From: an uncultured Acholeplasmatales bacterium
Lineage (GTDB): Bacteria > Bacillota_I > Bacilli_A > Acholeplasmatales > UBA5453
Assembly: GCA_927433595.1 (NCBI GenBank)
Contig: CAKMJY010000132.1
Span: 1-36,308 of the forward strand
Reading direction: 5' to 3'
Length of the DNA stretch: 36,308 bases
Numbering within the stretch: position 1 is the stretch's first letter; each line of letters opens with the position of its first letter. Position numbers and translations under genes: made by a program. Shown here one piece after another: positions 469-36,308 of this stretch. The notes under the pieces were generated by a model that ran no database searches, was not told the origin of the DNA, and saw only the letters and a program-made list of their open reading frames with translations.

Positions 469-708
469 GGCCGGGTCGCGTTATGGCTACAGCCTGTTGT
501 TCGTGGTGTTGCTCGCCAGCCTGGCGGGGATGGCGGTGCAGTGCCTGTGTTCACGGCTGGGCATCGCCACCGGCAAGGACTTGGCGCAGTTGTGCCGCGA
601 ACGCTACAGCCAGCGCTCCGCGCGCACGCAATGGGTGCTGGCGGAAATTTCGATCATCGCCACCGACCTGGCCGAAGTCCTTGGCTGCGCCCTGGCGTTC
701 CACCTGCT
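469..708 (+). repeat. mntH: Right arm of 240-bp inverted repeat; mntH/NRAMP fragment (plus orientation, reads from GPGLLISIGYMYPGKWATAIEAGSRYGYSLL)
   Basis: Plus ORF 437..727 repeats the peptide of the minus ORF 110..382 almost exactly. Confidence 0.75.
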
Positions 709-1523
709 TCAGTTGATGGAAATTTAGAAGTTACTTCATCACTACCATCGTGAATAAAGTTTGCAGGAAAACGGCCGTTGAAAGTTTTACCATCATAATC
801 ACTATCAAATGAAGCGTTAAATGTCCCTTTTTGTGGTGTTGCTGGGTCTAAAAATCTTTCTTCTTCTCCAACCCTACACTCATCGATATTGATTGCACCA
901 ACACCGTATTTTAAGACGTTTTGTGCAACTGTGCCTTTAAGTGGTTTTCTTGCTACGATAATTGGTTCATACGCTGGTTTAAGTGCTGTCCCCCAACCTT
1001 GCCATTGTTTAGCTTCTTCGGTTGAGGGTTCAAATTTTTTTCTATAATAAGTTCTATCTTCACCCAAAATGCCGTTATTTTTTCCTTTTAATGTGTAAGG
1101 TTCTCCATCACCATCTTGTTCAACTTGCCTTAATGATTTTGAATGTGAATTACCTTTTAATAGTGTTGCTTCTAATGCTTTACTTATATCATGTGATTTA
1201 GGAAATCCACTTCCATAAACCCACATAATGACATCTCTAATTTCAAACCCAGCGTCCTCAATAGCAACTGCAATACGATGAAATGTCCGTGAACCACCAA
1301 ATGCTAATAGATATCCACCTGGCTTTAATACTTCATAGCACTTGTCCCATGTTTCTTTTTGAAATGCGATACCGCTTCTGTCCCAACCCTTATTCATAAA
1401 GTTAAGTTCATACGGTGGGTCTGTAACTACGCTGTCAATGGTATTTGGTTCAATCACTTCTAAAAGATTTAACATTGAACCTTGATATATTTTGTAGTGA
1501 TCGTTTGAAATGTATTGATTCAT
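709..1523 (-). CDS. DNA (adenine/cytosine-N4) methyltransferase, phage type; 3' end truncated by chimeric junction
   Basis: DPPYELNFMNKGWD catalytic motif, SAM motif LLAFGGSRTFHRI, C-terminal NFIHDGSDEVTSKFPSTEAGG; the ORF tail (TPGRSQGLRPGRWR) runs into GC-rich foreign DNA. Confidence 0.85.
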
Positions 1524-2347
1524 GTTCGTGTACCTATGTCATAATTGATAAATAGTACTTCTCTTGATTGCTGTATAGAAGCAATATTAATTACTCTCTT
1601 AGTGTCTTTTACAATCACTTTAAAGAAGTACTTGTATATTTCATTTGAAGTCTTATTATCGACATCTGAGATTGCTACATCGATGTTTAATGATTTGAGA
1701 TAATCAGCTAGTGCTTGATTACTGAACTCATCTTTTGTGTAGCGTTGACTGTTGCAGTAAGGCGGATCGTTATAAATGAATGATTGCTGTGAATCTTCGC
1801 CCATCATTTCAAGTGTTAGATTGATGAAATGTCTATAATCCATGCAATGAAACTCAACGTTTTGAATTAAATTGCTTATTTGGCGTATTTCATTTTCATT
1901 GAATGTGATTTTTTCTTTATAACCAAAAGGAACGTTATACTCACCTTTTTTGTTTTCACGATACAAACCGTTAAAACCAGTTTTCATTAGAATCCAAAAG
2001 TATTCCCATTGGCGCTTATTTCGGTTATATTCTTTCTTATATACGTTGTAATAGAATTGCTTTTTCAAATCCATAGATTTCAGATTATTATAGTGTTCTT
2101 TGTAGTGATTAAGTCTAGATATCACACTGAATGGATGGTCTTTAATTGCTTTATAGAACTCTATGATTGCAACGTTGATGTCATTCACGATGTATCTTTT
2201 GTATTTGCGGTCTTGAATCAATCTAAATAGAACTACGCCACTTCCTAGAAATGGTTCAATGTATGTATCGGAGTCTTTAAAATACTTAAATAACTCACTA
2301 GTAATTTTGGCTTTTGATCCAGCCCATCGAAAAGGCGCTTTAATCAT
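1520..2347 (-). CDS. dam: Dam-family DNA adenine methyltransferase
   Basis: PFRWAGSKAK...YIEPFLGSGVVLF...YNDPPYCNSQRYTKDEFSNQALADYL; start chosen at MIKAPFRWAG rather than the longer track ORF. Confidence 0.88.
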   Translation of the reverse strand: MIKAPFRWAGSKAKITSELFKYFKDSDTYIEPFLGSGVVLFRLIQDRKYKRYIVNDINVAIIEFYKAIKDHPFSVISRLNHYKEHYNNLKSMDLKKQFYYNVYKKEYNRNKRQWEYFWILMKTGFNGLYRENKKGEYNVPFGYKEKITFNENEIRQISNLIQNVEFHCMDYRHFINLTLEMMGEDSQQSFIYNDPPYCNSQRYTKDEFSNQALADYLKSLNIDVAISDVDNKTSNEIYKYFFKVIVKDTKRVINIASIQQSREVLFINYDIGTRT

Positions 2348-2579
2348 TGTACAAATCCTCATAATCGGACATTGATTCTTCAATGTTTTCAAAGAACTTA
2401 TTAAAACGTTCTTCATCTTCTGGAGTGATATCTTTTAGTTCAGGTACCACTTGTACAAATTCAATTTCAGCATCTTCTAAGCAGTGCTGTTCTTCTATTA
2501 GTTGTTGAGCTGCTTCAAGTGATTCAGCTTCTACTTCTTCATAAGTTGTTCTGATAACTTTAAATTCAAATGTTGGCAT
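2340..2579 (-). CDS. Small highly acidic protein, possibly DpnD/PcfM-like
   Basis: 79 aa, very Asp/Glu-rich; MPTFEFKVIRTTYEEVEAESLEAAQQLIEE pattern; 8-bp overlap with dam. Confidence 0.6.
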   Translation of the reverse strand: MPTFEFKVIRTTYEEVEAESLEAAQQLIEEQHCLEDAEIEFVQVVPELKDITPEDEERFNKFFENIEESMSDYEDLYND

Positions 2580-2580
2580 G

Positions 2581-3006
2581 TTATCTCACCTCGAATGCTA
2601 GTTCAGTTTGTTGTTTAACGCTTAATGCGTTAGATTCATTATGTTTTGGTCGATTTGAGCCACTTTTAAACGAAACTTGATAAAGTGCTAGTGATATATA
2701 ATCAGAAGGCTTTAAAAGGTATTTATTGCACCATGCTTTGAACTGTGAGAAGTCATTATTTGCTTCTTTATATACAAAGTACTTAATCATTTCATCTGTA
2801 CTATCAAAATCAATAGATGCAAATGATGAACCATCGATTATGATTGCAAGTATTCTTGAATCATTCAAAGTGAAATATAGACCATTTTTTCTTTGATGAA
2901 CTAGTCTTGGAATATGTTCTGCTTCTACGTAGATGCAGATTGTTTGCTCATTAACTCTTAAACCCCATGTGTAAGGTTCTTTTGTTACTTCAATAAAGTC
3001 TGTCAT
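2581..3006 (-). CDS. Hypothetical protein
   Basis: ORF 2581..3036; internal ATG at 3006 preceded by AAGGAAGG ribosome-binding site. Confidence 0.6.
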   Translation of the reverse strand: MTDFIEVTKEPYTWGLRVNEQTICIYVEAEHIPRLVHQRKNGLYFTLNDSRILAIIIDGSSFASIDFDSTDEMIKYFVYKEANNDFSQFKAWCNKYLLKPSDYISLALYQVSFKSGSNRPKHNESNALSVKQQTELAFEVR

Positions 3007-3050
3007 GTTAAGTCCTTCCTTGTGAGTATTAATCACATTATCAAATTTTA

Positions 3051-3275
3051 TTAACGTTTTTGTGCATTATTTTCACATTGCTTTTCAAAAAAAATAGTGA
3101 TACTAGAATTTGTTAATCTTGAAATTCGGTCAAGTTCCTTAATTGAAAATTGTCTTTTCCCATTAATCTTAGAATTAAACGATTCCCTAGAAATACCAAT
3201 TTCTTTAGCTGCTTGTTCCTGAGTAATTTTCATGAACGATAGTTTTGATCTGATTACATTCAAGTTTACTAGCAT
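3051..3275 (-). CDS. Small Cro/XRE-type helix-turn-helix regulator
   Basis: ITQEQAAKEIGISRESFNSKINGKRQFSIKELDRISRLTN HTH; divergent from repressor at 3439. Confidence 0.75.
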   Translation of the reverse strand: MLVNLNVIRSKLSFMKITQEQAAKEIGISRESFNSKINGKRQFSIKELDRISRLTNSSITIFFEKQCENNAQKR

Positions 3276-3301
3276 ATCAACCCCTCCTTTTTTTGTGCAT
3301 A

Positions 3302-3390
3302 TTTTTCACATCTCACATATATAATAACCACAATGTGAAATAATGTCAATAAAAAATTGAAATATTTTCACATTATCATTTGAAATGTGC
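3302..3390. promoter_or_regulatory. Divergent promoter/operator region with repeated TTTCACATT / AATGTGAAA half-sites
   Basis: Half-sites at ~3303-3310, 3332-3340, 3365-3374 and 3383-3389 between two divergent HTH genes. Confidence 0.5.
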
Positions 3391-3438
3391 GTTATTTGCT
3401 ATAAAGATGTAAAATATAAGAGATGTGGAGGTAATAAA

Positions 3439-4008
3439 TTGAACAACTTGAGAAAACTGAGGAAAGAACGCAAACTTAATCAAGTGGAACTATCTGAAAT
3501 TGTTAATATAGATAGAAGTACCATATCCAGAATTGAATCTGGAAAATCTAGTTTTACTCAAGAACATCTTGAGGTTTTTTCAAATTATTTCAATGTATCA
3601 ATAGATTACCTACTAGGAAAGAAAGAAAAAGTTATATCAAATGCTATCCGAGCTGAAAAAATCCCAGTTTACTCAAAAATATATGGAGGAAGTTATATTT
3701 TGAGAGAAGATTGTTTTGTTGGATATCAGGTTGCACCTGCCAGTGAAGATTTAACAGACTGTATTTATTTAGTATCAGATAAAGACTACAAGAATGAAGG
3801 TATCTTTAAAGATGATCTATTGATGGTTAGATTAAACACTGCTGTTGCACCAGGTGTTCATGTGTGTGCGAACGACAATGAACCTGGGGGAGTTTATAGA
3901 ATCGTTGAATTAAACAAAGAATGGATTTTACTAGCTGACAATATGCCAAGCAAATTGGATAAACAAGTCCTTGGCCAAGTTTTAATGGTATCAAGAATAA
4001 TTAAATAG
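3439..4008 (+). CDS. CI-like phage repressor: XRE HTH plus S24/LexA-like C-terminal domain
   Basis: LRKLRKERKLNQVELSEIVNIDRSTISRIESGKSSFTQEHLEVFSNYFNVSIDYLLGKK; C-terminal S24-like fold. Likely TTG start at 3439 behind GGAGGT. Confidence 0.8.
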   Translation: MNNLRKLRKERKLNQVELSEIVNIDRSTISRIESGKSSFTQEHLEVFSNYFNVSIDYLLGKKEKVISNAIRAEKIPVYSKIYGGSYILREDCFVGYQVAPASEDLTDCIYLVSDKDYKNEGIFKDDLLMVRLNTAVAPGVHVCANDNEPGGVYRIVELNKEWILLADNMPSKLDKQVLGQVLMVSRIIK

Positions 4009-4183
4009 AAATCAAAAAGAGTGAATGTGGGAGATATTCACTTAGATTTCGAGTGTTCGTATGAATAAAAGAACAAACATTAATCGGGGGAGTAGTGTTT
4101 GATCAACTATGTCTTTTTTAAGATATTTTTTTGGTCATTCTGCGCTTCTTTTTTTATTGGAGTGCATAAATATAGGAGGATTT

Positions 4184-4564
4184 ATGAGGAAAAGTATTGT
4201 TTTTTTGGTTTTACTGTTGAGTCTGTATACTTTATCAGGATGCGCCTTTAACACTAGTAGTCCGTTCGAAGATTTACCTTTGGAACGAGATATTAGTAGT
4301 TCTGATATTACATGGCTAACAGCATCACAAGGTGGTTCAAGTGTTACGTTAAATTTTACAGCAAATTCTAAGATTAAAGACATCACTATTCAAGTAACAT
4401 TCTTAGATAAAAATGATAACGTTGTTACTACCAATACTAAATCGATGTCTAGTTTGGTTAGTGGTGAAACTTATTCATTGAAATTTGGTATAGATTTTTT
4501 TGAAATGTTATCAGTATCAAAATACACGTACAAGATTTTATCTGGTACAGTCGATTTAACTTAG
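4184..4564 (+). CDS. Small predicted lipoprotein
   Basis: Signal MRKSIVFLVLLLSLYTLSGC with lipobox LSGC; RBS AGGAGG upstream of the 4184 ATG. Confidence 0.75.
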   Translation: MRKSIVFLVLLLSLYTLSGCAFNTSSPFEDLPLERDISSSDITWLTASQGGSSVTLNFTANSKIKDITIQVTFLDKNDNVVTTNTKSMSSLVSGETYSLKFGIDFFEMLSVSKYTYKILSGTVDLT

Positions 4565-4572
4565 GAGGATTT

Positions 4573-4830
4573 ATGGATAAAGTAATTAGAACCATTATTG
4601 TTGGGTTTATTTTTGCAACACATTTTATCGCTTTAGTCATGTCATTTTATCTGCAAGTTATTTATTCTTCACTTTTTAGAATCGAGGTTGAACTAAGTAA
4701 TTATAGTTTAATAGGTAATAACGATCCATTTCTATTTTTTGTCTTTGCTGGATACCTATCAATTGTAGTCTTATTCAGCAGCGTGTACTTGTTCGTTGCG
4801 TTTTTTCCAACTAAGTCAACCAAAAAGTGA
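4573..4830 (+). CDS. Small predicted membrane protein (two transmembrane segments)
   Basis: 85 aa, two hydrophobic stretches; RBS AGGAGGATTTATG identical to that of the preceding gene. Confidence 0.6.
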   Translation: MDKVIRTIIVGFIFATHFIALVMSFYLQVIYSSLFRIEVELSNYSLIGNNDPFLFFVFAGYLSIVVLFSSVYLFVAFFPTKSTKK

Positions 4831-4859: not shown

Positions 4860-4888
4860 TTGCAATGATAAAAGTATCATGATAGAAT
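4860..4888 (+). promoter_or_regulatory. Sigma-A type promoter for type III antitoxin RNA
   Basis: TTGCAA (4860-4865), 17-bp spacer, TAGAAT (4883-4888); start predicted ~4895, immediately before the repeats. Confidence 0.65.
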
Positions 4889-4894
4889 ACAGGT

Positions 4895-5040
4895 GTAGTA
4901 AGTCATCTATGAATGATAAAGTCTGAGGGTAAGACTGAATAAATAAGTCCCGATTGATGATACAGTCTGAGGGTAAGACTGAATAAATAAGTCCCAATAG
5001 ATGACAATTGACCCTGCTATATTGCAGGGTTTTATTTTAG
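4895..5040 (+). ncRNA. Type III toxin-antitoxin antitoxin RNA precursor (tandem pseudoknot repeats)
   Basis: 31-nt core GTCTGAGGGTAAGACTGAATAAATAAGTCCC exactly repeated at 4921-4951 and 4965-4995 (period 44) with partial flanking units, between promoter and terminator, upstream of toxin ORF. Confidence 0.8.
5011..5038 (+). terminator. Rho-independent terminator between antitoxin RNA and toxin
   Basis: ACCCTGC-tatatt-GCAGGGT followed by TTTATTTT. Confidence 0.85.
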
Positions 5041-5048
5041 GTGAAAAT

Positions 5049-5498
5049 ATGAAATATGATCTGAAACTATTAAGCGCTTCTTTTTACAACAAATATCCTA
5101 GTGATACTTATCCAGACATACTCTTAAAAGATTTACGGCCATATATTGTTATTGTTGTAAAAATAGAAGATTATAACTGGGCTATACCATTACGTTCTCA
5201 TGTTAAACATAATTATTGCTATCGTTTAAAAGGATCCGGAAGATCTAGTGATTCTGCACTCGACTTCACAAAGGCTGTAATCATCAACGTATCATCAGAC
5301 ATTGAAGGTGAACCTGTTATCGATAATAATGAGTATATAGATATTGATTCTTCAATTGAGTTCATCATAACTAAGTTCAGCACATTCATAGCTAACTATA
5401 TTAAGATGTGTAATGACAGCGAATATAATCCTTATGCGTTTGAACGTATAGAGAACTACGGTACATTAAAGTATTTCAAGAGTTTACTGATTCACTAG
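5049..5498 (+). CDS. Type III toxin-antitoxin toxin, CptN/TenpN/ToxN/AbiQ-like endoribonuclease
   Basis: MKYDLKLLSASFYNKYPSDTYPDILLKDLRPYIVIVVKIEDYNWAIPLRSHVKHNYCY...SALDFTKAVII (RPY, IPLRS..KH, LDF-KAVII signatures); true ATG at 5049 behind AGGTGA; track start 5001 lies in the antitoxin/terminator. Confidence 0.8.
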   Translation: MKYDLKLLSASFYNKYPSDTYPDILLKDLRPYIVIVVKIEDYNWAIPLRSHVKHNYCYRLKGSGRSSDSALDFTKAVIINVSSDIEGEPVIDNNEYIDIDSSIEFIITKFSTFIANYIKMCNDSEYNPYAFERIENYGTLKYFKSLLIH

Positions 5499-5562
5499 CC
5501 CTTTTAATGGCAACCTTTAAATGATAGAATATATGTTAATGATGGAGCAATGCTCCTAGACT

Positions 5563-5590
5563 AAGGCGGACATTACCGCCTTTTTATTTT
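5563..5590 (+). terminator. Rho-independent terminator
   Basis: AAGGCGG-acatta-CCGCCTT followed by TTTATTTT. Confidence 0.8.
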
Positions 5591-36002: not shown

Positions 36003-36140
36003 AAACAAAAAGTCATTAAAAAAGCACGATTGCTCGTGCATTTTCTAATTTTTAATTAGTGAGACATTTTTTGTTTTGCGATATCTGCTTTGATTTCGCC
36101 TGCTTTGGTTAAAGCAACCTTCGTAATGAGTGGTCCTACC
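36003..36140. repeat. Direct repeat copy 1 (138 bp, period 168 with 36171-36308)
   Basis: AAACAAAAAGTCATT...GAGTGGTCCTACC identical in both copies. Confidence 0.9.
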
Positions 36141-36180
36141 AGTTCATAGACGAATGTAGCAGATATCGCAAAACAAAAAG
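36056..36180 (-). CDS. C-terminal fragment of a membrane transporter, antiporter-like
   Basis: Minus frame FAISATFVYELVGPLITKVALTKAGEIKADIAKQKMSH-stop resembles cation:proton antiporter C-termini; 5' portion lies in the rearranged repeat. Confidence 0.4.
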
Positions 36181-36308
36181 TCATTAAAAAAGCACGATTG
36201 CTCGTGCATTTTCTAATTTTTAATTAGTGAGACATTTTTTGTTTTGCGATATCTGCTTTGATTTCGCCTGCTTTGGTTAAAGCAACCTTCGTAATGAGTG
36301 GTCCTACC
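36171..36308. repeat. Direct repeat copy 2, reaching the window end
   Basis: Identical to 36003-36140. Confidence 0.9.

Follow-up and report, generated by a model that had tools for sequence, protein, structure and literature searches.

The window analysed here, a 36,308-nucleotide stretch, is one of the 133 contigs in a 1.59-Mb assembly from an uncultured relative of Acholeplasma, which can be placed to the order Acholeplasmatales only. It carries at positions 4860-5590 what is very probably an intact TenpIN type III toxin-antitoxin locus. The pair is an ordinary-looking addition to the known TenpIN family. Gene order, family membership, the predicted fold of the toxin and a covariation-backed pseudoknot in the antitoxin RNA are what the analysis establishes; RNA processing, complex formation, toxicity and a part in phage defence or in the stabilisation of the accessory block would follow by analogy with other TenpIN members. 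A sequence-only reading had proposed a type III system of the CptIN/TenpIN/ToxIN/AbiQ-like kind, arranged as promoter, repeat array, terminator, open reading frame and second terminator. The type III assignment holds, upheld by a TenpIN profile score above the cut-off, an AbiQ/CptN/ToxN fold and a repeat RNA that covaries among relatives, and every element of the layout is present, the promoter as a promoter-like site. We found no published type III system from the Acholeplasmatales in the literature searched.

The toxin gene, tenpN, extends from an ATG at 5049 to position 5498 and encodes a predicted endoribonuclease of 149 amino acids, a call that draws on the open reading frame, profile and alignment data, and the AlphaFold2 and Foldseek results (like all features of the locus, it lies on the plus strand). 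An in-frame ATG at 5001 precedes the terminator; the N-termini of relatives align with 5049, the start proposed earlier. A Shine-Dalgarno sequence, AGGTGA, was read directly at 5039-5044, 4 nt ahead of the start codon. The sequence-only reading had suggested profile and structure searches as checks, and both gave positive results. The NCBIfam TenpIN equivalog, NF047358, matched the toxin over the whole model length with 119.8 bits (cut-off 90, E 1e-34), and the cut-off was also passed in a whole-genome profile search. The window toxin thus belongs, by curated profile, to the family of the Photorhabdus luminescens system TenpIN_Pl, whose order of repeat, terminator and toxin it shares; the host order, Acholeplasmatales, is different. 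Of the families originally named, the toxin is assigned to TenpIN rather than CptIN; the ToxN and AbiQ models match weakly: Pfam ToxN_toxin produced a short match of 15.5 bits, below its cut-off of 25, and PADLOC AbiQ an E-value of 0.0044 across 29 residues. No CptN family in Pfam, NCBIfam or PADLOC matched, libraries that may hold no CptN model.

Searching the PDB by sequence, with the single protein or with a 15-member profile, returned no related chain. An AlphaFold2 model built with nine loci (pLDDT 90.4, pTM 0.86) was then compared with known structures by Foldseek. It matched AbiQ (4glk, probability 1.00), CptN (4rmo, 0.99) and ToxN (4ato, 0.97). AbiQ came first, ToxN and CptN fell within the top four, and MazF structures appeared around and after these. 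E-values were modest, the best being 3e-3. The TM-scores are clearly higher for AbiQ, ToxN and CptN (0.50-0.57) than for MazF (about 0.3), and the model points to a ToxN/AbiQ/CptN fold. Likeness of type III toxins to MazF is already known (PMC4627078). Positions F12, R30, P47, R49, H54, D72, K75, Y117 and L140 are invariant in the family, and Ser or Thr occurs nearly always at position 50 and always at 74; these conserved positions are candidate active-site and RNA-binding residues.

Upstream of the toxin gene, Tandem Repeats Finder identified an array at 4913-5004 with a period of 44 nt, 2.1 copies, 93% match and a score of 163, the highest of any array in the window once a duplication at the contig end is set aside (the next scores 81). 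A core, AGTCTGAGGGTAAGACTGAATAAATAAGTCCC, occurs twice without change, at 4920-4951 and 4964-4995. The exact repetition and the 44-nt period had been recognised from the sequence; the core, given as 31 nt, measures 32. Each copy can be drawn as an H-type pseudoknot, identified through the repeat itself, a pseudoknot search and covariation. In monomer 1 (4920-4951), helix S1 pairs AGTCT (4920-4924) with AGACT (4932-4936), helix S2 pairs GGG (4927-4929) with CCC (4949-4951), and an A-rich loop spans 4937-4948. In monomer 2 (4964-4995), S1 joins 4964-4968 to 4976-4980 and is lengthened by a C4963-G4981 pair, and S2 joins 4971-4973 to 4993-4995. Between the two lies a linker, GATTGATGATAC (4952-4963), with a conserved motif of the GATGA/GAAGA type that is probably the processing site. 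The CptI family was said earlier to have about two repeats of some 45 nt. The Eubacterium rectale CptIN system (PDB 4rmo) indeed has two repeats of about that length, the same fold and an H-type pseudoknot whose L1 is short and whose L2 is rich in A. It differs in lacking a sequence-family match to the window toxin, and the window's L1 consists of two nucleotides (GA) and its S2 of three base pairs. ToxIN and AbiQ share the gene order and the predicted fold, AbiQ being the best PDB match, but their repeats measure 34-36 nt rather than 44 and the toxin falls under the Pfam ToxN cut-off.

The pseudoknot was read from the window alone, and its pairs were afterwards tallied over 36 monomers aligned by sequence. 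Paired bases fill 97.9% of the cells, and seven of the eight pairs show changes on both sides. The covariation score was 0.431, against 0.174 +/- 0.018 in shuffles, none of which reached it (0/500), and at most 0.103 when the partners were slid. Compensation affects all three pairs of S2 (GGG/CCC, GAG/CTC, GGA/TCC, AGG/CCT, TGG/CCA); elsewhere among the lineages this helix reads GAGC/GCTC, GAAC/GTTC, CGGT/ACCG, GACC/GGTC and others. Within a locus the stems frequently differ between the two monomers, each being matched internally. Because a search for pairing had supplied the initial monomers, the selection was redone on the loop sequence motif alone, and both helices were retained. Compensating changes in seven of eight pairs, never equalled in the shuffles, support an H-type pseudoknot in each repeat of the window, a predicted structure that agrees with the solved pseudoknots of ToxI and CptI (PMC5086642, PMC4627078).

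Regions upstream of the relatives' toxins were also searched for pseudoknots of the H type whose second loop is rich in A, dinucleotide-shuffled regions serving as control. A tandem pair was found in 92 of 109 regions, with a score reached by 0.9% of the shuffled ones; the corresponding figure for the window's own pair is 0.3%. Folding (MFE, z -3.5) further suggested a possible 9-bp stem around the array, made by a 5′ arm, GTCATCTAT (4902-4910), and a 3′ arm, ATAGATGAC (4997-5005), which bears the last GATGA motif. Such a stem would bury this last linker motif. Similar stems occur in some relatives (L002, L008, L012 and L013), not in most. As a general feature the enclosing stem was rejected, since over 80 loci own flanks hardly pair better than swapped ones (mean -8.5 versus -7.7 kcal/mol; 20% versus 10% at or below -12), and we keep it as a local feature only.

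The promoter-like site, TTGCAA-17-TAGAAT with a TG ahead of the -10 element, occupies 4860-4888 and is a consensus match only. Described at the outset as a sigma-A promoter, the pattern is indeed there, but it is no commoner than chance predicts (8 matches versus 8.4 expected in shuffled sequence of the region); taken alone it is weak evidence for a promoter, and its position fits. Terminators stand out more sharply, with five terminator-like sites in the 1.4 kb region versus 0.4 expected. The terminator scan confirmed both of those reported before: the one between antitoxin and toxin, formerly placed at 5011-5038, spans 5010-5031 and runs into a T-rich tail, and the one downstream of the toxin lies at 5563-5582.

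The locus fits an inserted accessory block, judging from the sequences on either side. To its left, the interval 654-4830 encodes an N6/N4 DNA methylase, a D12 adenine methylase, an XRE-type HTH protein, an S24/HTH repressor, a predicted lipoprotein and a small membrane protein; to its right are GNAT and AdhE genes. In a sister genome (L170) the same GNAT-AdhE genes are preceded by ABC transporters, the methylase and TenpIN genes are absent, and DNA similarity to the window ends at about 5746. This supports the earlier placement in an accessory region. Both ends of the contig show irregularities. Positions 1-716 have 65% GC, versus about 32%, and contain one reading frame twice in opposite orientations (110-382 minus, 437-727 plus), presumably a metal-transporter fragment; this stretch, which cuts the end of the methylase gene 654-1523, is a contaminating or chimeric contig end. 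At the other extremity (36003-36308), a 168-bp unit present in 1.8 copies with 100% identity is probably an assembly overlap artefact.

Relatives were gathered from whole genomes (order, class and phylum), plasmids, genome contigs (80 loci) and viral contigs (9 loci). A single-protein scan of genome contigs gave no confirmed relative, and phage records contained no match. Within the order, 5 of 160 genomes, in five genera, carry TenpN, four of them over the cut-off; two bearers placed in the order are an Acholeplasmatales bacterium and a member of the Anaeroplasmataceae. No other sampled genome of the window's genus has the gene, so that selection for function is not demonstrable from close orthologues. 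The patchy occurrence fits mobile or accessory genes. The window toxin is 28-49% identical to the relatives fetched and forms a long branch; as the tree gives it no supported sister group, we claim no donor lineage. Some plasmid relatives have unusual neighbours or architecture. On Lactococcus plasmids (L032:1417-3219), two tandem pseudoknots precede a long frame (600 aa) annotated as an ImmA/IrrE family metallopeptidase that contains a TenpN-like domain, an apparent fusion, and a match on a plasmid of E. faecalis OG1RF also bears a metallopeptidase annotation, DUF6782. A Priestia plasmid has the Rfam "Bacillus-plasmid" RNA (RF01691) just 3′ of its TenpN gene (L030:2089-2152).

A connection to an orphan RNA emerged from Rfam, which matched 6A RNA (RF02925; entry type "Gene; sRNA") in the arrays of some TenpN relatives. 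It lies directly upstream of TenpN at L028, L070, L072-L074, L076-L078, L080, L084 and L085, and also at L088, L089, L097-L099, L106, L111 and L116-L119. In 20 genomes picked for TenpN, 28 of 29 6A matches precede the gene, and the remaining one (L153) lies ahead of an apparent stub of a TenpN-like frame. Class-wide samples were taken regardless of TenpN for the classes of a Treponema, a Christensenella and a Collinsella (297, 391 and 200 genomes); 6A occurs in 5, 4 and 6 of these, respectively, and is followed by a TenpN relative in 5/5, 4/4 and 4/6. This amounts to 13 of 15 genomes across the Spirochaetia, Clostridia and Coriobacteriia samples, a figure in which one truncated match and one split gene are counted. 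Of the 15, four (G643, G639, G641 and G647) were previously known through TenpN, three as search centres, and leaving them aside gives 9 of 11. In Coriobacteriia, two 6A/TenpI arrays have no adjoining TenpN (L181, about 1460-1560; L184, about 1490-1600, minus strand), and are possibly solitary antidotes or remnants.

These associations suggest that 6A RNA serves as an antidote of the same kind as the window array. Both are tandem RNAs directly upstream of TenpN relatives, with a hairpin whose loop can reach over an A-rich stretch to pair with an element downstream. They differ in sequence subgroup: an Rfam scan of the window array gave chance-level matches only, and RF02925 in particular showed no match up to E 10 and did not reach its gathering threshold. 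That no Rfam model matches the window repeat is also a difference from the known TenpIN. On balance we favour a single class of TenpI pseudoknots comprising 6A and the window array. TenpI would then occur widely among uncultured bacteria of gut and rumen (Bacillota, Spirochaetota, Fibrobacterota, Coriobacteriia, Mycoplasmatota), its stems diverging between lineages by paired changes, and toxin-less arrays (two of the six sampled Coriobacteriia genomes with 6A) might counter incoming TenpIN elements. The link of 6A to type III systems may already be known from the original 6A description.

Other explanations of the locus were weighed. It could be a decayed remnant, a TenpIN-like sequence whose toxin has lost its activity or its expression, and decay does occur among the relatives: toxins are interrupted by internal stops at L009, L011, L013 and L014, L016/L068, which looks decayed, combines a single pseudoknot with a TenpN that has lost about 17 internal residues, and L153 has the apparent stub mentioned above. 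The window's frame, however, is full-length, free of stops and furnished with every family-invariant residue, and its Shine-Dalgarno sequence, two intact monomers and both terminators are in place; we regard decay as improbable.

Still far less probable are two readings that would separate the RNA from the toxin. The many MazF structures in the fold search would suit a MazF-like RNase of a type II system, with a protein antitoxin and a repeat ahead of it by chance. Against this stand the clearly higher TM-scores of AbiQ, ToxN and CptN, the TenpIN sequence family of the toxin, an RNA array common to the relatives and, in departure from MazEF, a gene directly upstream (4573-4830) with no antitoxin profile in Pfam, PADLOC or NCBIfam. 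Nor is there appreciable likelihood that the array has nothing to do with the frame and arose by chance or as a structural repeat, such as a regulator binding site or an attenuator. The repeat has two copies only and the simple promoter scan was uninformative, but two-pseudoknot arrays with covarying stems precede TenpN in most relatives, and searching with Rfam 6A, with no use made of TenpN, arrives at TenpN genes again.

With the TenpIN assignment, a working scheme can be drawn from the type III systems studied elsewhere, whose toxin cleaves the RNA precursor itself and is then held by the pseudoknots it releases, to be freed once that RNA is lost (PMC5086642). One promoter would give a short RNA with two pseudoknot monomers, the terminator at 5010-5031 ending most transcripts and read-through supplying a little toxin mRNA. 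TenpN, as an RNase of the ToxN/AbiQ/CptN fold, would cut the precursor at the GATGA/GAAGA linkers and stay bound to the released pseudoknots of about 44 nt, its active site blocked. Should transcription be disturbed, for example by a phage, the RNA would be lost faster than the toxin, and the freed TenpN would cut cellular or phage RNA and stop growth. In both E. coli and Pectobacterium, phages are aborted by the Photorhabdus TenpIN (PMC5377504); by analogy, the likely role of the present locus is phage defence or the stabilisation of its block.

The locus extends the range of TenpIN to the Acholeplasmatales. Its relatives provide a covariation-backed pseudoknot for TenpI, a family with no PDB relative found by sequence, and the compensating stem changes form a ready list for testing that structure. 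They also offer a function for 6A RNA, a family that Rfam lists merely as sRNA.
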